A DNA stretch of 64,000 bases, from positions 62,001 to 126,000 of the forward strand of contig JAUQWM010000032.1 of the NCBI GenBank assembly GCA_030835125.1. Reading direction: 5' to 3'. The position numbers and the translations under genes are program-made. The notes beneath the pieces were generated by a model, which was given only the letters and a program-made list of their open reading frames with translations, was not told where the DNA came from and made no database searches. Within the stretch, counting starts at the first letter, position 1. Each line of letters begins with the position of its first letter. The stretch comes from Gemmatimonadaceae bacterium. Lineage in GTDB: Bacteria; Gemmatimonadota; Gemmatimonadetes; Gemmatimonadales; Gemmatimonadaceae. Positions 23,240 through 31,410 of this stretch are shown in pieces.

Positions 23240-24506
23240 GCGCCAGGTCGCGCCAGAAGTCCGGGTACGACACGGCAACGCACTCGGGCCGATCCACCTG
23301 CAGGTCGGCCTGCGCGGTGGCGCCGAGCACGCCGAACGCCATGGCGAGGCGATGGTCGCCGTGCGTGTCGATGCGTCCCGACAGCGGGGCGCGGGTCCCG
23401 CGGATCCGCATCCCGTCGGGCGTCTCATCCACATCGACGCCAATGGCGCGAAGGTTGGCGACGACCGCGCCGATGCGGTCACTTTCCTTGACGCGCAATT
23501 CCGCCGCGCCCGCGATGATCGTCTCCCCGGACGCGCGGGCGGCCACGCAGGCCAGCACCGGCAGTTCGTCGATCAGCGACGGCACCTCGTCGCCGTCGAT
23601 GACGGTGCCGGAGAGGTGGACCGGCCGCACCACCAGGTCGCCGAGCGGCTCGGGACCCGCGTCGTTGCGATCGACGATGTCGACCCGCGCCCCCATGCGG
23701 CGAAGGACGGCGATGAAGCCGCAGCGCCCCGGATTGAGGCCCACGTCGCGGATGGTCACCGAACCCACGTCGGCCATCGCCGCCAGCGCCGCAAAGAAGG
23801 CGGCCGACGACGGATCGCCCGGGACGGTGATGTTGAGCGGATCGAGTCGCGTGGGCGGGTCAAGGACGATCATCCCGCTGCCGACGTCGATGGCGGCGCC
23901 CTGCGAACGCAGCATGCGCTCGGTGTGGTCGCGCGTGGGCGCCGGCTCGCGGATGACGACCGCCACGCCACCGGTCACGCCCGCGATGAGCAGCGCACTC
24001 TTCACCTGGGCGGATGGCGTCTCGAGGGTCCAGTCGAGCGCGCGAAGGCCTCCCCCCTCGACCGTCAACGGGAGGCCGTCGCGGTCCCCGTGGATCGTGA
24101 TCCGGGCGCCCATGTCGACGAGCGGCTTCGCCACGCGGCGCATGGGACGGCGGCTCAGGCTCTCATCGCCCGTGAAGGTGGCCTTCACCGGATAGCCCGC
24201 GACCAGGCCCATGAGGAGGCGGGTGCTCGTGCCGGAGTTGCCGCAATCGAGCTGGGAGATGGGGGACGGGAGGTGGGAGAGCCCGCTCCCCGGCACCATC
24301 AGCTCCGGGGCCAGCGCCGGCACGGGCCAGCCTAACGCGCGGAGCGCGCCGGCGGTCGACTCGATGTCGGCCGAGCGCAGGATCCCCCGGACGGTGGTGG
24401 TGCCGTCGGCCAGGCACCCGAACATGAGCGCCCGGTGCGAGACCGACTTGTCGCCGGGGACGCGCAGTTCGCCGCGCACGGCGAGGCGCGAGCGGCCACG
24501 CGTCAC
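23226..24506 (-). CDS. aroA: 3-phosphoshikimate 1-carboxyvinyltransferase (EPSP synthase) with repeat-derived insert
   Basis: Joins shikimate 3-phosphate and PEP in the chorismate pathway. GTG 24506 overlaps the dapD stop as GTGA and gives 426 residues. Active-site blocks are GELRVPGDKSVSHRAL, DCGNSGTSTRLLMG, DESLSRRPMRRVAKPL, VKESDRIGAV and THGDHRLAMAFGVLG. Just before DCGNSG, at about residues 76-86, the peptide LSHLPSPISQL is encoded by a GGGAGATGGGGGA-type word repeat otherwise confined to spacers. The reading frame stays open and all active-site motifs remain, so function is probably kept. Confidence 0.93.
   Translation of the reverse strand: MTRGRSRLAVRGELRVPGDKSVSHRALMFGCLADGTTTVRGILRSADIESTAGALRALGWPVPALAPELMVPGSGLSHLPSPISQLDCGNSGTSTRLLMGLVAGYPVKATFTGDESLSRRPMRRVAKPLVDMGARITIHGDRDGLPLTVEGGGLRALDWTLETPSAQVKSALLIAGVTGGVAVVIREPAPTRDHTERMLRSQGAAIDVGSGMIVLDPPTRLDPLNITVPGDPSSAAFFAALAAMADVGSVTIRDVGLNPGRCGFIAVLRRMGARVDIVDRNDAGPEPLGDLVVRPVHLSGTVIDGDEVPSLIDELPVLACVAARASGETIIAGAAELRVKESDRIGAVVANLRAIGVDVDETPDGMRIRGTRAPLSGRIDTHGDHRLAMAFGVLGATAQADLQVDRPECVAVSYPDFWRDLAHVAS
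24251..24281. repeat. Spacer-type GGGAGATGGG word repeat embedded in aroA
   Basis: About 31 bases made of GGGAGATGG-, GGGACGG- and GAGGTGGGAGAG-like words. It matches the style of the spacer elements at 17700 and 34126 but lies inside a reading frame. Confidence 0.7.
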
Positions 24507-25375
24507 CGGAGCCACGATTCGAGCGCCGTGGACAGGTCGGTGCGCGCGTCGCGGTACTTCACGATCACCGGCGTCTGCAGGGACAGCCCCTGCTCCCTCC
24601 CCCACGGACTCGTGACGGCACGGGCACCGGGAACCACCACCGCGCCTTCGGGGATCTCCAGCGGCGCCTCGGCGGAACCGCGGATGACCTGCTGCCTGAC
24701 GAGGTCGAAGACCGGCGTGCCGCGCGTGAGCACGGTGCCGGCCGCGAGGACCGCGCGCGCGCGGACGACGGTCCCCTCGTAAATGCCGCAATTTCCCCCG
24801 ACCACCACGTCGTCCTCGATGACGACCGGCGCCGCGTTCACGGGCTCCAGGACGCCGCCGACCTGCGCCGCCGCGCTGAGGTGTACGCGTTCCCCGATCT
24901 GTGCGCAGGAGCCGACGAGCGCGTGGGAATCGATCATGGTTCCCGATCCGACCCAGGCGCCCGCGTTGACGAACATGGGCGGCATGCAGACCACGCCCGC
25001 TGCCACGTAGGTGCCGCGGCGGATCGAGGAACCGCCGGGCACGATGCGGACGCCGTCGCCCACCGAGAACGCCCGCGGGGGAATCGTGTGCTTGTCGATG
25101 AAACGCAACGTGTCGGTGTCGGTCGACATCTCCACGACCTTCCCGGCACGGAATGCCAGGAGGATGCCACGCTTCACCCAGGGGTGGGCCTTCCAGGTGC
25201 CGTCGGCGCCTCGCTCGGCGGCACGGATCGTTCCCGCCTCGAGCAGCGAAAGCAGCGCGGAGACCCGGTCGGCTGCCTCGGGCGGCAGCGGCTCCCCCGG
25301 CGGCGTCGCCGCCAGTTCGTCGATGCGCGCCGCCAGCGCAGCCAGATCCGCGGGCGACGCACTGGAACCCGGCAT
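24503..25375 (-). CDS. dapD: 2,3,4,5-tetrahydropyridine-2,6-dicarboxylate N-succinyltransferase
   Basis: Succinylates tetrahydrodipicolinate with succinyl-CoA in the succinylase branch of lysine/diaminopimelate synthesis. The start ATG 25375 (MPGSSASPADLAALAARIDE) overlaps the dapA stop and gives 290 residues. The centre is a left-handed parallel beta-helix of hexapeptides (FVNAGAWVGSGTMIDSHALVGSCAQIG). The family segments KRGILLAFR, VPGGSSIRRG and GGNCGIYEGTVV are present. Its presence with dapE points to the succinyl route. Confidence 0.95.
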   Translation of the reverse strand: MPGSSASPADLAALAARIDELAATPPGEPLPPEAADRVSALLSLLEAGTIRAAERGADGTWKAHPWVKRGILLAFRAGKVVEMSTDTDTLRFIDKHTIPPRAFSVGDGVRIVPGGSSIRRGTYVAAGVVCMPPMFVNAGAWVGSGTMIDSHALVGSCAQIGERVHLSAAAQVGGVLEPVNAAPVVIEDDVVVGGNCGIYEGTVVRARAVLAAGTVLTRGTPVFDLVRQQVIRGSAEAPLEIPEGAVVVPGARAVTSPWGREQGLSLQTPVIVKYRDARTDLSTALESWLR

Positions 25376-26268
25376 CAGAAGCCCTCGACCCCCGCCGCGG
25401 CCAGCGACGCGCGAACCGCCGACACACTGGCGTCCCCGAGCGTGACCAGCGGCAGTCGGAGGACGTTTTCGATCTTCCCCATCATCGCCAGCGCCGCCTT
25501 GGCCGGGATCGGATTCGGCTCCACGAACGCCGCGGACATCCAGGGCTGGAGCTTTCGATGCAGCGTGCGCGCCGTCGCGAGGTCCTGTGCCGAGCACGCG
25601 TCCGCGAGTTGCGACATCAGCCGGGGCGTTACGTTGCTCGTCACCGAGATCACGCCGTCGCCCCCGAGGGCCATCACCGGCAGCGTGATCGAGTCGTCTC
25701 CCGACAGCACCGAGAAGCCCGGCGGCCGGTCGCGGATGATGTCGGCGATCTGGTTGATGTTTCCCGACGCCTCCTTGACCGCGACGATGCGCGGGTGCCT
25801 GGCCAGCTCGAGCGTGGTGCGCGCCTCGATGTTGCTTCCCGTCCGCCCGGGGACGTTGTAGACGACGATCGGGAGGTCCACCGCATCGGCGATGGCCCGG
25901 AAATGCGCGAGGATCCCGCGTTGCGGGGGCTTGTTGTACATCGGCGAGACGTGCAGCAGGTGTGTCGCCCCGGCGGCCTTCACCTCCTTCGACATCGCGA
26001 TGGCGCGCGCGGTGTCGTTCGAGCCGGCGCCGGCGACGACCGGCACACGGCCCGCGACAACCTCGACGGTCAACTCCACGACCCGGCGGTGCTCGGCGGG
26101 AGTCATCGTGGCCGCCTCACCCGTCGACCCGCAGGGCACCACGAAGTGCACGCCTTCGGCGACCTGCCACTCGACGAAAGCGCGCAGCGCCGCCTCGTCG
26201 ACCTGCCCGTCGCGCTGGAACGGCGTGACGAGCGCCGTCCCGCATCCGGTGAGCGTGCGGCCGTTCAT
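25375..26268 (-). CDS. dapA: 4-hydroxy-tetrahydrodipicolinate synthase
   Basis: Condenses pyruvate with aspartate semialdehyde, the first committed step toward lysine and DAP. ATG 26268 overlaps the dapB stop (ATGA) and gives 297 residues. Key motifs are CGTALVTPF, VPCGSTGEAATMT, HVSPMYNKP, the catalytic Tyr in VYNVPGRTG and the Schiff-base Lys in VAVKEASGN. Confidence 0.96.
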   Translation of the reverse strand: MNGRTLTGCGTALVTPFQRDGQVDEAALRAFVEWQVAEGVHFVVPCGSTGEAATMTPAEHRRVVELTVEVVAGRVPVVAGAGSNDTARAIAMSKEVKAAGATHLLHVSPMYNKPPQRGILAHFRAIADAVDLPIVVYNVPGRTGSNIEARTTLELARHPRIVAVKEASGNINQIADIIRDRPPGFSVLSGDDSITLPVMALGGDGVISVTSNVTPRLMSQLADACSAQDLATARTLHRKLQPWMSAAFVEPNPIPAKAALAMMGKIENVLRLPLVTLGDASVSAVRASLAAAGVEGF

Positions 26269-26966
26269 CTCTCCCCCCGATGGTCCAGGATGTCCTTCAT
26301 GGTGAACACGCCGCTCCCCCGCGCCTGGAGCCATTCCGCCGCCGAGATGGCTCCATCGGCAAACACGCGACGGTCCCGCGCCTCGTGCACCAGGCGAAGC
26401 TGCTCGAACGGCGCGTCCACCACCAGTTCATGCGTGCCGGGCACGTGGCCGGTGCGAATGCTCGTGATCGGCACCTCGCGGCCCATGGCGTGTCCGGCCC
26501 GCTCGGCGAGCATGGCGGCGGTCCCCGACGGCTTGTCCTTCTTGGCCGCGTGGTGCGTCTCGACCAGGTGCACGTCGAAGCCCGGCAGGCCCCGGAGAGC
26601 CGCTCCGGCCGCCGCGATTGCGGCCGCGATCACGGCCACGCCCACGGAGAAGTTCGGGGCCCAGAACAGCGAGCCGTTCACGCGCTGGGCCTCGGCGACC
26701 ACTTCGTCGAGGCGCTCATACCATCCCGTCGTTCCGACGACGACGGGGATACCGGCGCGAAGGCAGGCCATCACGTTGGCGAACGCCGCTGACGGCTCGG
26801 TGAACTCGATGGCCACGTCGGGTCGGCCGAGCCGGTCGCGATTGATGCCCGACCCGCCGGCGTTGTCGCCCATCCCGAGCATGGCCGAGATCGTGTGGCC
26901 GCGCTCGACGGCACGCTCCGCGATCGCCCGTCCCATCCTGCCGTCGCCGATGAGCGCGATCCTCAC
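26265..26966 (-). CDS. dapB: 4-hydroxy-tetrahydrodipicolinate reductase
   Basis: Reduces the DapA product with NAD(P)H. At 233 residues it is slightly short for the family. The dinucleotide loop is IGDGRMGR at residues 6-13. Catalytic and substrate-binding residues lie in ETHHAAKKDKPSGTA, and VGTTGWYERLDEV and APNFSVGVAV are conserved. GTG 26966 overlaps the lysC stop as GTGA, and the stop overlaps the dapA start as ATGA. Confidence 0.95.
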   Translation of the reverse strand: MRIALIGDGRMGRAIAERAVERGHTISAMLGMGDNAGGSGINRDRLGRPDVAIEFTEPSAAFANVMACLRAGIPVVVGTTGWYERLDEVVAEAQRVNGSLFWAPNFSVGVAVIAAAIAAAGAALRGLPGFDVHLVETHHAAKKDKPSGTAAMLAERAGHAMGREVPITSIRTGHVPGTHELVVDAPFEQLRLVHEARDRRVFADGAISAAEWLQARGSGVFTMKDILDHRGER

Positions 26967-28324
26967 GAGTCGCCTCCCGGCGGGAAGAAGGCCGCGTGGA
27001 GTTGCCGCATCGCCGGTGCCACCTGGTCGGCGTCGACGAGCATTGTGAGGTTGATGCCGCTGGCGCTGAGGGACAGCATGTGGATCCTCATCCCGTGCAT
27101 CGCGGCCAGCGCGCGCGCCATGGCATCGCTGTCGGCGCCCAGCCCGGCACCCACCAGCGCGACGATGCCGCGATTCCGCTCCACGGAGACGTCGCCGAGC
27201 TGCAGCAGGTCGACCATGAGCGTGTCGAGGTGCCGCGCGTCATCGATGGTGAGGCTCACGCTGATCTCCGACGTGGCGACGACGTCCACCGAGGTCCGGT
27301 GGCGGTCGAAGATCTCGAAGATGCGCGCCAGGAAGCCGTGCGCCAGCAGCATCCGCAGCGAGCGCACCTTCACCACGGTGACGCCCTCCTTGCCGGCGAT
27401 CGCCGTCACCGGGCGCCGCGGGGCATCGAAGGCGATCAGCGTCCCGTGCCCCGCCGGGTCCTTCGCGTTCAGGATCGACACCGGGATCCCGAGCCGGACC
27501 GCCGGGGCGATGGTGCTCGGGTGGAGCACCTTGGCACCGAACGACGCCAGCTCGGACGCCTCGTCGAACCGGATCCGCTCGATGAGCCGGGCGTCGGGCA
27601 CGATCCGCGGGTCCGCGGTGAGCATGCCATCCACGTCGGTCCAGATCTCGATCGACTCGGCGCCTAACGCGGCGCCGAGGAGGGAGGCGCTGAAGTCGCT
27701 GCCGCCGCGACCCAGCGTGGTGATGATGCCCTGCTCGGTCGCCCCCACGAAGCCGCCCACCACCGGGACCGAGCCCTGCGCGAGCAACGGCCGGATCACC
27801 GCGCTGGCCCGCTCGGCGATGCGGTCGGTCCTGGGTTCCGCCTTCCCGAACTGGTCGCCGGTGATCATGACGTCCATCGGTGAGACGTACACCGCCGGGA
27901 CCCCGCGCTTCCGGAAGGCGGCCACGACCAGCGCGGAGGAGACCAGCTCGCCCTTGGCCGCGATCGCATCCACGCTGCGCGGCGTGGCGTGGCCGAGCAC
28001 GAACAGCGCCTCGGCGAGCGCGGCCAGTTCGTCGAACGTCGCCGCGACCTCGGCGGCCACGTCCGTGGCGTCCTGGTCATCGCCCAGGAGGTCGCTCGCC
28101 ACCTGGAGGTGGCGCTCCCGCAACGCCTCCACGCCGCGCATCGCCAGGATCACCTGGCCCGACGCCGCCTGCTCGGCGATGGCGATGAGCGCATTGGTGG
28201 CGCCGCCGAGGGCGGAGACCACGACCAGCGGCTGTCGCGGCACCCGCTCGGAGACGATCCGGGCGGCACGATCGATCGCCGCGGCGTCACCGACGGACGT
28301 CCCGCCGAACTTGGCGACGATCAT
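26963..28324 (-). CDS. lysC: Aspartate kinase with C-terminal ACT domains
   Basis: Phosphorylates aspartate, the entry step to lysine, threonine and methionine. The 453-residue enzyme starts MIVAKFGGTSVGDAAAIDR. The catalytic region carries GRGGSDFSASLLGAALGAESIEIWTDVDGM, and ACT-type regulatory repeats occupy roughly residues 310-453. The position in a DAP operon suggests feedback by lysine, but this is inference. ATG 28324 overlaps the asd stop. Confidence 0.95.
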   Translation of the reverse strand: MIVAKFGGTSVGDAAAIDRAARIVSERVPRQPLVVVSALGGATNALIAIAEQAASGQVILAMRGVEALRERHLQVASDLLGDDQDATDVAAEVAATFDELAALAEALFVLGHATPRSVDAIAAKGELVSSALVVAAFRKRGVPAVYVSPMDVMITGDQFGKAEPRTDRIAERASAVIRPLLAQGSVPVVGGFVGATEQGIITTLGRGGSDFSASLLGAALGAESIEIWTDVDGMLTADPRIVPDARLIERIRFDEASELASFGAKVLHPSTIAPAVRLGIPVSILNAKDPAGHGTLIAFDAPRRPVTAIAGKEGVTVVKVRSLRMLLAHGFLARIFEIFDRHRTSVDVVATSEISVSLTIDDARHLDTLMVDLLQLGDVSVERNRGIVALVGAGLGADSDAMARALAAMHGMRIHMLSLSASGINLTMLVDADQVAPAMRQLHAAFFPPGGDS

Positions 28325-29382
28325 GCCGGTTCGAGCAACCCCCGTGAGGCGAGCAGCTCCGCGTTGAGGACGGATCCTCCCGCGGCACCCCGGATGGTAT
28401 TGTGACCGAGGGCGACGAGCTTGACGTCGAACAGCGGGTCGGGGCGGATGCGCCCGACGGTGACCGTCATCCCGCGCCCGGCCCACACGTCGCGGCGCGT
28501 CTGCGGCCGGTCGGGCTCGCTCGTCACGACGATCGGCAGGTCCGGCGCCGACGGCAGTCCCTTCACGTCAGGGTGACCGCGCCAGGCGCCAAGGACGCCG
28601 ACCACCTCATCGACGCTTGCCGCTCTCCCGAGGGCCAGCGACAGGCACACGAGGTGCCCGTGCTCGGTCGGCACGCGATTGGTGTGCGCGCTCACCGTGA
28701 ACGGGGCGTGGCGCACAGTACCCGCGTCCAACGTGCCGAGCATCTTGGCCAGTTCCCGCTCGACCTTGGGCTCCTCTTCCCCGATGTACGGAATGACGTT
28801 GCCGAGGATGTCGAGCGACGGCACACCCGGATACCCGGCCCCGGACACGGCCTGCATCGTGAAGACCATCGCCTTCGAGATCCCGAACGCCTCGTGCAGG
28901 GGGGCCATCGCCATCGCCGCCACGGTGGCGGCGCAATTGGCATTGGTCACGATGCCGCCCGTCCACCCGCGATTCCGCTGCTGCACCGCCAGGAGGCCGA
29001 GGTGCGCGGCGTTGACCTCCGGGATGACGAGGGGGACGTCCACATCCATGCGGTGGTTCTTCGCGTTGCTCAGGACGAACCGTCCGGCGCGCGCGAACGC
29101 CTGCTCCACCTCGCCGGCCACGCCACTGTCGAGCGCGGAGAAGACGAGCGGGGCCTTCACCTCGGAGGGATCGCAGCGGACGACCGTTCGCGATGCGAGC
29201 TCGGGCGGGAGGGTTCCCTCCAGCCACCGGCAGGCCTCGGCGTACGGACGGCCCGCTGATCGGTCCGAGGCGGCGAGTTCCGCGATCTCGAACCAGGGGT
29301 GACCGGCGAGTTGACGGATGAACGTCTGCCCGACGGCACCGGTGGCGCCGAGGATGGCGACGGCCCAGCGGCGCTGGCTCAT
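28321..29382 (-). CDS. asd: Aspartate-semialdehyde dehydrogenase, archaeal/fungal-like type
   Basis: Reduces aspartyl phosphate to the semialdehyde with NADPH. The 353-residue sequence has ILGATGAVGQTFIRQL for NADPH binding. The catalytic Cys lies in VTNANCAATVAAMA. The ending GHNTIRGAAGGSVLNAE belongs to the archaeal/yeast branch rather than the E. coli branch. ATG 29382 overlaps the dapE stop as ATGA. Confidence 0.93.
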   Translation of the reverse strand: MSQRRWAVAILGATGAVGQTFIRQLAGHPWFEIAELAASDRSAGRPYAEACRWLEGTLPPELASRTVVRCDPSEVKAPLVFSALDSGVAGEVEQAFARAGRFVLSNAKNHRMDVDVPLVIPEVNAAHLGLLAVQQRNRGWTGGIVTNANCAATVAAMAMAPLHEAFGISKAMVFTMQAVSGAGYPGVPSLDILGNVIPYIGEEEPKVERELAKMLGTLDAGTVRHAPFTVSAHTNRVPTEHGHLVCLSLALGRAASVDEVVGVLGAWRGHPDVKGLPSAPDLPIVVTSEPDRPQTRRDVWAGRGMTVTVGRIRPDPLFDVKLVALGHNTIRGAAGGSVLNAELLASRGLLEPA

Positions 29383-30371
29383 GCGAGCAGGCTCCGCACG
29401 ATGCGCTGGTAGGCGTCGACGGCGGCACGCAGCTCCGTCACGTCGATGTACTCGTCAGGCGTGTGCGCGACGTGGATGGACCCCGGCCCGAAGAGGAGCG
29501 GCGTCCCCCAGCGATCGAGGAGCGGAATGTCCGACGTGTACGACATGGGCGCGGTGTCGAACCCCGGCAGCGTGTGAAAGAACTGGGCCGGGATCGTCGA
29601 ACCCCACGTGATCTCGGCGCGACCGGCGACCCACTGTTCCACCATCTGCTTCACCACCGCGACGTCGCCGGTGAGCCGGAACATCATCTCCGCCTCGCAC
29701 GTGCCCGGGATGATGTTGGCCTCGGTCCCGCCGCGTATCACGCCGATGTTCACGGATCCCGTGCCGAGTCGCGCGTCCCCCGGCAGGTCCAGCTTCATGA
29801 CCCCGGGCAGCAGTTCCAGCATCGGCTCGATCGCGGACTTGCCCAGCTCGGGATAGGCCGAATGGGCTTCCCGGCCGCGCGTGAGCAGCTTGACGCGGAG
29901 GGAGCCCTTGGCGCCGCTCGCGAGCCTGCTCTCCGTGGGCTCACCATTGACGAGGAAGCGGCTGGTGGCCGGGAGCCGGTTGGCGGCCCGCGCCCCGTCG
30001 GAGTTCTTCTCCTCGCCGACCACGAACAGGAGGTCCACCCGGTCCTCACCCTCGCCCGCCAGCGCATCCGCGGCGACGAGCATCGCCGCCGCGATCCCCT
30101 TGGCGTCGCAGGCACCGCGTCCGTACAGGCGCGAACCGTCGAGGCGCGGCGACACGAAGGGCGGGACGGTGTCGAGGTGCGTGGAGAGCGTGACGCCCCC
30201 ACCGGCCCGGGAAGCCCAGATGTTGCCGCGTCGATCGGAAACCTCCTGGACCGTCACGTTCCAGCCGCGCGAGATGAGCCACCGCGAGACGAAGTCAACG
30301 ACCCGGCCTTCGCTGCCGGAGGAGGATTCTATGGCCAGCAACTCGGCGGCCAGCGCGACGACATCGACCAT
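29379..30371 (-). CDS. dapE: M20 family amidohydrolase, probable succinyl-diaminopimelate desuccinylase
   Basis: A 330-residue zinc peptidase-fold enzyme. Metal ligands are in LSTHLDTVPP and GRGACDAKGIAAAML, the catalytic acid is in LFVVGEEKNSDGA, and AHSAYPELGKSAIE belongs to the lid. Enzymes of this clade also include LysK/ArgE-type hydrolases. The operon with dapD, which makes the N-succinyl intermediate, favours DapE. As first gene of the operon its ATG lies seven bases after a TACAAT box, so the mRNA may be leaderless. Confidence 0.85.
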   Translation of the reverse strand: MVDVVALAAELLAIESSSGSEGRVVDFVSRWLISRGWNVTVQEVSDRRGNIWASRAGGGVTLSTHLDTVPPFVSPRLDGSRLYGRGACDAKGIAAAMLVAADALAGEGEDRVDLLFVVGEEKNSDGARAANRLPATSRFLVNGEPTESRLASGAKGSLRVKLLTRGREAHSAYPELGKSAIEPMLELLPGVMKLDLPGDARLGTGSVNIGVIRGGTEANIIPGTCEAEMMFRLTGDVAVVKQMVEQWVAGRAEITWGSTIPAQFFHTLPGFDTAPMSYTSDIPLLDRWGTPLLFGPGSIHVAHTPDEYIDVTELRAAVDAYQRIVRSLLA

Positions 30372-30378
30372 GGCGACA

Positions 30379-30384
30379 ATTGTA
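30379..30384 (-). promoter_or_regulatory. Predicted -10 box (TACAAT) of the dapE operon
   Basis: TACAAT on the minus strand is followed by seven bases and then the dapE ATG. The expected start site falls at or next to the ATG. No Shine-Dalgarno site is present, which fits a leaderless transcript. The -35 region is weak and overlaps the palindrome at 30395-30409. Confidence 0.45.
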
Positions 30385-30394
30385 GCCAGCGGCG

Positions 30395-30409
30395 ACCTGC
30401 TTTGCAGGT
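30395..30409. promoter_or_regulatory. Palindrome ACCTGC-TTT-GCAGGT in the dapE/hydrogenase-like divergent spacer
   Basis: A perfect six-base inverted repeat with three-base centre. It contains TTGCAG, which with TACTGT at 30424-30429 (16-base spacing) could be the plus-strand promoter, and it covers the -35 position of the minus-strand promoter. This is a candidate shared operator. Confidence 0.45.
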
Positions 30410-30474
30410 GTGTGGGGATATCCTACTGTCGCCGCGGCACGCGGATCGTAGTTTTCCGTGCCCGCGCCTCCTTC

Positions 30475-31410
30475 ATGCCCCTCGCCCCGGAAGCCCCGAT
30501 ACGCGCCGCGATCCTTGGCACGGATGCCCTGCTGGCTTCGCAGCCGGCAGATCCGGTCCAGGTGGTGCATGCGTGCCAGCGGATCGGATTCGACCTCGTG
30601 GCACCGGTCGCCTGGGGTGAGGAGTTGATCGCGGCATACCTGGCGACGCGCATGGGGGCCGACGGACCGGGCGCCGCGGTCATCTCGAGTTGCCCCTTCG
30701 TGAACGAGGAACTGCGGGACCTTCCGTCGGGGCCATACACGATCCGGACCGTCTCACCGCCGGTCGCCTGTGCGCGCTATCTCCGCGCGGCGTTCCGCCC
30801 ACGCCCCGTGCACGTGACCTACGTCGGGGCGTGCCCGGGCGCGGCGTCCGCCGACGTCGACTTTCAGGTGCTGCCGGACGTGCTGCTCGCGCGGTTCGTG
30901 GACGGCGGGATCGACCTCGCGCGCCAGCCGCGCCATTTCGAGGGGCAGGTCCCCCCGGGACGTGCTCGTTATGCGTCCCTGCCGGGAGGGGCGCCAGAAC
31001 CCGGCTGGCTCCGCCTGGCCGCCGACGCCCTGCTGGTGGAGGCGGCGCCGGTGACCGCCCTGGCCGTGGCGGTGGAGCACCTGCAGGACCATGTGGTCAT
31101 CGACCTGGCGCCGGCGTGCGGCTGTGCCTGCGCGCGCGACCGGTTCAGCGCCACGCGACTCGAGCCGCCGCGCGCCACGGCACCGGTGGTCCTGGACTTC
31201 GGGGTGTCGGTCCTCGAGGATCGCGAGGTGCCGCCGCTGGAACGCGAGGTACCGACGGTTCCGGCGGTTGAGCCGATTCCCGCCCGCCCGGACGGTCCGG
31301 CGCGGGAACTCCGGGTCACGTTCGCCCAGTATGGCCTGTCCTCGGTGGAGGCAGAGCCGCCGGCGAAGCTGACGTCGGACCTCGTGACCGCGATCGAGCC
31401 GTGGACGTGA
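30475..31410 (+). CDS. Protein resembling the [FeFe]-hydrogenase large-subunit C-terminal domain
   Basis: A 311-residue protein. The region 28-160 follows the layout of the [FeFe]-hydrogenase H-domain. It has GFDLV and a gap, then ISSCPFVNEEL (C73) where the family has TSCCP. Next come VSPPVACARYL and YVGACPGA (C120) where the family has MPC. DVDFQVLPDVLLARFVDGGIDL then matches the DVDxVLTxREL region. A later cluster CGCAC (C215, C217, C219) could replace the third cysteine loop. There is no N-terminal ferredoxin domain. Four or more cysteines could hold a [4Fe-4S] cluster; hydrogenase activity is doubtful. No hydrogenase maturation genes are seen. The last 80 residues are unassigned. Confidence 0.6.
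   Translation: MPLAPEAPIRAAILGTDALLASQPADPVQVVHACQRIGFDLVAPVAWGEELIAAYLATRMGADGPGAAVISSCPFVNEELRDLPSGPYTIRTVSPPVACARYLRAAFRPRPVHVTYVGACPGAASADVDFQVLPDVLLARFVDGGIDLARQPRHFEGQVPPGRARYASLPGGAPEPGWLRLAADALLVEAAPVTALAVAVEHLQDHVVIDLAPACGCACARDRFSATRLEPPRATAPVVLDFGVSVLEDREVPPLEREVPTVPAVEPIPARPDGPARELRVTFAQYGLSSVEAEPPAKLTSDLVTAIEPWT

Follow-up and report, generated by a model that had tools for sequence, protein, structure and literature searches.

To our knowledge, few H-domain proteins that do without [2Fe] chemistry have been described, the main one being Nar1. Among the [FeFe]-hydrogenases, the sensory enzymes of groups C and D combine N-terminal clusters, a catalytic (H) domain and a C-terminal [4Fe-4S] cluster, with a PAS domain in group C (PMC13104023), and in sensory hydrogenases the position of C299 is often not a cysteine (PMC10055695). 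Nar1 is an H-domain protein that has the cubane site and lacks [2Fe]H (PMC12621388). In the part of the literature covered by our search, we found no description of the stand-alone family reported here, or of an H-domain-GGDEF fusion.

We analysed a stretch of 64,000 nucleotides from a soil bacterium of the Gemmatimonadaceae (hereafter the window), in which an earlier reading of the letters alone (the original prediction) had placed a stand-alone H-domain-like protein beside the lysine operon. The open reading frame, its coordinates and the motifs ISSCP (C73), SPPVACARYL, YVGACPGA (C120), DVD/GGIDL and CGCAC (C215, C217 and C219) were all found as predicted, and GC by codon position (0.79/0.54/0.86) is coding-like over the full length of the gene. 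The genome (4.48 Mb, 99% complete) carries a second copy of the gene on contig 23. The locus is laid out as follows:

29379..30371, minus strand: divergent neighbour, an ArgE/DapE-type M20 deacylase at the end of the dapD-dapA-dapB-lysC-asd cluster (context only)
30372..30474, no strand: intergenic region of 103 bp towards the divergent M20 deacylase gene (sequence read directly)
30475..31410, plus strand: gene for the H-domain-like protein, 311 aa plus stop (open reading frame, PF02906 match, structure search)
30496..31209, plus strand: degenerate [FeFe]-hydrogenase H-domain core, residues 8-245 (AlphaFold2 pLDDT mostly 75-97, Foldseek matches to [FeFe]-hydrogenases, alignment of relatives)
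31210..31407, plus strand: low-confidence tail, probably disordered (AlphaFold2 confidence, alignment with relatives)

The resemblance to the H-domain, for which the original prediction proposed a profile search, a structure prediction and a check of cysteines in orthologues, goes beyond chance. PF02906 matched residues 16-120 of the window protein with E=4e-4 and 20.5 bits, against a curated cut-off of 22.1, and a close relative, L013, passed the cut-off with 26.6 bits. This is the only Pfam family matched, so the ferredoxin domain is missing, as had been noted; the closest NCBIfam model, that of monomeric [FeFe]-hydrogenase, scored far under its own cut-off. A PDB search with the window sequence alone gave zero matches, and a search for related loci with that single sequence returned none, an alignment being required as the query. 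An AlphaFold2 model built with 17 relatives as the alignment has a confident core (pLDDT mostly above 90), and the 50 PDB fold matches listed are without exception [FeFe]-hydrogenases, led by 8a6t_A (E=1.9e-8); TM-scores of about 0.5 of the query indicate a partial, shortened H-domain. Relatives fused to a GGDEF domain supply the intermediates. The profile of the window family matches that of the GGDEF type at 99.9% probability (E=2.8e-32), the three cysteine motifs of the GGDEF-type profile align with solved HydA sequences, and GGDEF-fused relatives match PF02906 with E values down to 2.8e-18. On the weak profile match, the fold matches and this chain of intermediates, the window protein is a remote yet genuine homologue of the [FeFe]-hydrogenase H-domain.

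It is not a hydrogenase, because the HydE, HydF and HydG maturases are absent and both the ferredoxin domain and the lysine that holds [2Fe] are gone. The lack of maturation genes, first remarked for the window, extends to the whole genome, in which none of the three gave a match over the cut-off while a Thermotoga maritima control was positive. HydG over the cut-off was likewise absent from 19 of 19 tested Gemmatimonadota genomes with the stand-alone or the GGDEF type. In a twentieth genome of the same phylum, HydG lies on the contig of a canonical 2xFd-H-FeS-histidine-kinase protein; this protein (L129:6300-8321), from a distant family, joins a true sensory-type [FeFe]-hydrogenase to a histidine kinase. 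Compared with it, the window protein has ISSCPF for ATTCPS, GACPGA for GPCIAKK and APACGCACA for LCCNGCIMG. Lost with GPCIAKK is its lysine, the residue that binds [2Fe] in CpI.

A wider comparison is with sensory groups C and D (TmHydS and TamHydS), which have a homologous H-domain and, like the window protein, no cysteine at the C299 position. Unlike them, the window protein has no ferredoxin or C-terminal FeS domain (both the N-terminal [4Fe-4S] pair and the C-terminal FeS domain of HydS are missing, and PF04060 is absent from the window genome), no maturases in its genome and no [2Fe] lysine; in its family the third motif is CxC, and a disordered or membrane tail replaces PAS. Of the "non-hydrogenase cluster protein" originally predicted, maturases and ligands bear out the first part, and sequence conservation makes a bound cluster the probable second.

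The residues that would hold such a cluster are these:

30691..30693, plus strand: Cys73, aligned with the cluster-ligating second cysteine of TSCCP
30832..30834, plus strand: Cys120, aligned with the second H-cluster motif (MPC/GPCIAKK), with no Lys at Cys+3
31123..31125, plus strand: Cys217, aligned with the distal cysteine of the third H-cluster motif
31129..31131, plus strand: Cys219, family-invariant, not Cys in GGDEF relatives, proposed replacement fourth ligand

We counted conservation over 50 distinct family members, the third-motif positions being readable in 49. Cys73 and Cys120, predicted as the first two cluster loops and aligned with H-cluster motifs, are invariant (50/50). The suggestion of CGCAC as a third loop held for Cys217 and Cys219, a CxC pair present in 49 of the 49 members with data, and failed for Cys215, which is not conserved across the family alignment and is ruled out as a ligand; its presence here is incidental. 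Cys71 is found in 88% of members and Cys34 in 82%, and the window protein has Ser at 71. The first cysteine of the TSCCP pair is absent, as the original prediction said, with Ser at residue 72. This serine takes the place of the proton-relay Cys299 of CpI, and Cys73 and Cys217 are aligned with CpI C300 and C503. In other words, three cubane ligand positions of the H-cluster are matched (C73, C120 and C217), and the fourth is not a cysteine in the window family; the canonical set of four cubane cysteines in three motifs is not present, C219 standing elsewhere. We propose C219 as a lineage-specific substitute for the fourth ligand. Since four cysteines are invariant and three of them fall on H-cluster ligand positions, we infer that C73, C120, C217 and C219 hold one all-cysteine [4Fe-4S] cluster with one ligand exchanged.

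Scanned with patterns from the alignment, about 85,000 species genomes gave matches in Gemmatimonadota only. Within this phylum (297 genomes), the stand-alone type occurs, patchily, only in the window's own family, Gemmatimonadaceae; GGDEF-type scores occur in families f2, f7 and f9, with the architecture read directly in a subset; and no genome was seen to have both. In the tree, the two types each occupy one side of a branch. The window protein forms a supported subclade (99/98) with L072, on long branches.

The neighbourhoods of the stand-alone relatives fall into four types. In type A (22 loci), a Crp-family gene lies directly divergent from the H-like gene; its product has cNMP-binding and HTH_Crp_2 domains and lacks FNR-type N-terminal cysteines. 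In at least 20 of the 22 loci, the gap between them contains, in constant orientation, a 15-bp element, GCAATGnnnGGGCCG, which is nearly unique, with about one site per genome, at the H-like gene; at that frequency, a genome-wide regulon was not seen. The element, found in L033-L063 and L069 (for example at L040:7822 and L059:4974), is non-palindromic, and no FNR-box or other palindrome is consistent between the Crp and H-like genes. Type C (six loci) has the order Crp, SCO1, CtaG, the H-like gene and sulfocyanin where the flanks are covered. In type D (three loci), the neighbours encode an ECF sigma factor, a thioredoxin-domain protein and a penicillin amidase; the single annotated locus also has an RskA-type anti-sigma gene. 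Type B consists of the window and L072, adjoining dapD-dapA-dapB-lysC-asd.

The tails also differ among relatives. A strong hydrophobic segment, either C-terminal or followed by a further segment, marks the tails of about 23 of 41 members, and many relatives are accordingly predicted to be membrane-tethered. Most type A and type C members have an (L/V)PRAYxARR-like tail motif. Within the otherwise disordered linker in the tails of L039-L064 and of type C (for example, L040 residue 355), it reads (L/V)PRAY(V/M)ARRR(S/T)P and is possibly an interaction peptide. The tail of the window protein, in contrast to many relatives, has neither a transmembrane helix nor the PRAY motif.

On the minus strand at 24503-30371, the window holds the cluster of dapD, dapA, dapB, lysC, asd and the ArgE/DapE-type M20 deacylase. 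The adjacency to the lysine operon given in the original prediction is real; the operon is a neighbour only, and most relatives are located elsewhere. Any window-specific meaning of it is weak, as the locus is common to just one other genome (L072), of the same paralogue branch. The GCAATGnnnGGGCCG element of the Crp-linked relatives is not present in the 103-bp intergenic region (30372..30474). Because the window copy lies on a long branch and has no adjoining regulator, tail motif, membrane anchor or upstream element, its function may differ from that of its relatives.

We favour the reading, at a probability of roughly 60%, that the window protein is a hydrogenase-derived Fe-S redox sensor or relay and not a catalyst. 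The evidence suggests an old enzyme core reused as a redox sensor, since relatives sit beside gene regulators or inside signalling enzymes. Of the roles first put forward (electron transfer, sensing or Nar1-like assembly), the wiring of relatives to Crp-family regulators and a diguanylate cyclase domain leans towards redox sensing or relay. Mechanistically, a catalytically retired H-domain would retain the cubane pocket without the [2Fe] subsite, Cys 73, 120, 217 and 219 would hold one [4Fe-4S] cluster in it, and a change in the cluster's oxidation state or in its integrity (by O2, NO or redox poise) would alter domain contacts and hence the activity of a partner. The partner would probably be the Crp-family regulator without FNR-type N-terminal cysteines in type A, respiratory machinery in type C, and, in the GGDEF type, the fused cyclase with c-di-GMP as output. 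The window copy itself falls in a divergent soluble branch of the family.

The main rival, which we consider unlikely, is an electron-transfer protein, that is, a single [4Fe-4S] domain that exchanges electrons with respiratory or copper-assembly components and has no signalling role. The placement of type C genes between CtaG and sulfocyanin, downstream of SCO1, would suit this, as would the membrane anchors of many members. However, the polypeptide has no ferredoxin domain, unlike hydrogenases, most relatives adjoin a regulator and not a redox enzyme, and the soluble window copy lies next to lysine genes.

A further alternative bears on the cluster itself: the H-fold may be a cluster-free scaffold for protein interaction or ligand binding, with cysteines that serve a structural purpose, coordinate a different metal or are joined in a disulfide. 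The GGDEF relatives are what recommends it. They belong to a neighbouring family of the same order, have 560-600 aa and combine a pair of Fer4 motifs with an H-domain, a PF04060 FeS motif and GGDEF; sensory groups C and D share with them the [4Fe-4S] pair at the N-terminus, the H-domain and the FeS cluster motif at the C-terminus (PMC13104023, PMC10055695). These Fd-H-FeS-GGDEF proteins are the nearest relatives outside Gemmatimonadaceae and share RRRxxS..GG and EPPRA-type motifs with the window family; unlike it, they are multi-domain diguanylate cyclases whose third motif is PCEGC or cysteine-less, not GCxC. Gemmatimonadota cyclases of this architecture (2xFd-H-domain-FeS-GGDEF) include L021, L023, L025, L028, L019, L032 and others, and in several loci an NtrC-like gene and an HD-domain gene flank the fusion gene. 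Ten GGDEF-branch sequences retain TCP, VC and PCEGC. The other 16 have all lost C73 (15 to Asp, 1 to Ser), and the PCEGC pair is not retained in any of them whose sequence extends across the third motif. In the branch tree, the 10 keepers group together (98/98), and 13 of the losers make up a second clade (100/93); the loss in this major subclade is joint, with Asp at the Cys73 position. Where all three motifs were read, the cluster cysteines are gone together, with the fold kept, in 15 of 25 GGDEF relatives, so the fold can function cluster-free. For the window family, a cluster-free scaffold is nevertheless improbable, as the four cysteines are invariant in every member with data despite highly diverged sequences, and three of them stand at H-cluster ligand positions.

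A Nar1/IOP1-like factor for Fe-S assembly or trafficking is very improbable. Nar1, a eukaryotic CIA factor, is a known [FeFe]-hydrogenase homologue with a cubane site and no [2Fe] (PMC12621388), and the H-domain is common to both. Nar1/IOP1 carries a second site at its N-terminus and a targeting tryptophan at its C-terminus, but the four-cysteine N-terminal site was not found in the window protein, the neighbouring genes are not Fe-S assembly genes, and a patchy spread in Gemmatimonadaceae is ill-suited to a housekeeping assembly role. Finally, on maturases and ligands we reject both an active [FeFe]-hydrogenase and a true H2 sensor that carries an H-cluster: the domain is that of sensory groups C and D, and about 10% of sensory enzymes likewise have Ser at the C299 position (PMC10055695), but the missing HydE/F/G contradict activity unless there is an unknown maturation route, the second-motif lysine is lost and the third motif has become CxC.

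Returning to the redox sensor or relay, we put forward a broader proposal tentatively, at less than even odds: that Gemmatimonadota turned a sensory-hydrogenase H-domain into a hydrogen-independent Fe-S signal-input module with re-plumbed CxC ligands, wired separately to a Crp-family regulator with a private operator, an oxidase-assembly operon, an ECF-sigma locus and a diguanylate cyclase that later dispensed with the cluster and retained the fold. If true, a bacterial family with changed cubane ligands would show a route from a catalytic metal site to a sensor, with a GGDEF branch partly without the site and a same-phylum protein with domain and maturases as the contrast set. A further prediction would be a Crp-family pathway that responds to redox conditions in abundant soil bacteria.
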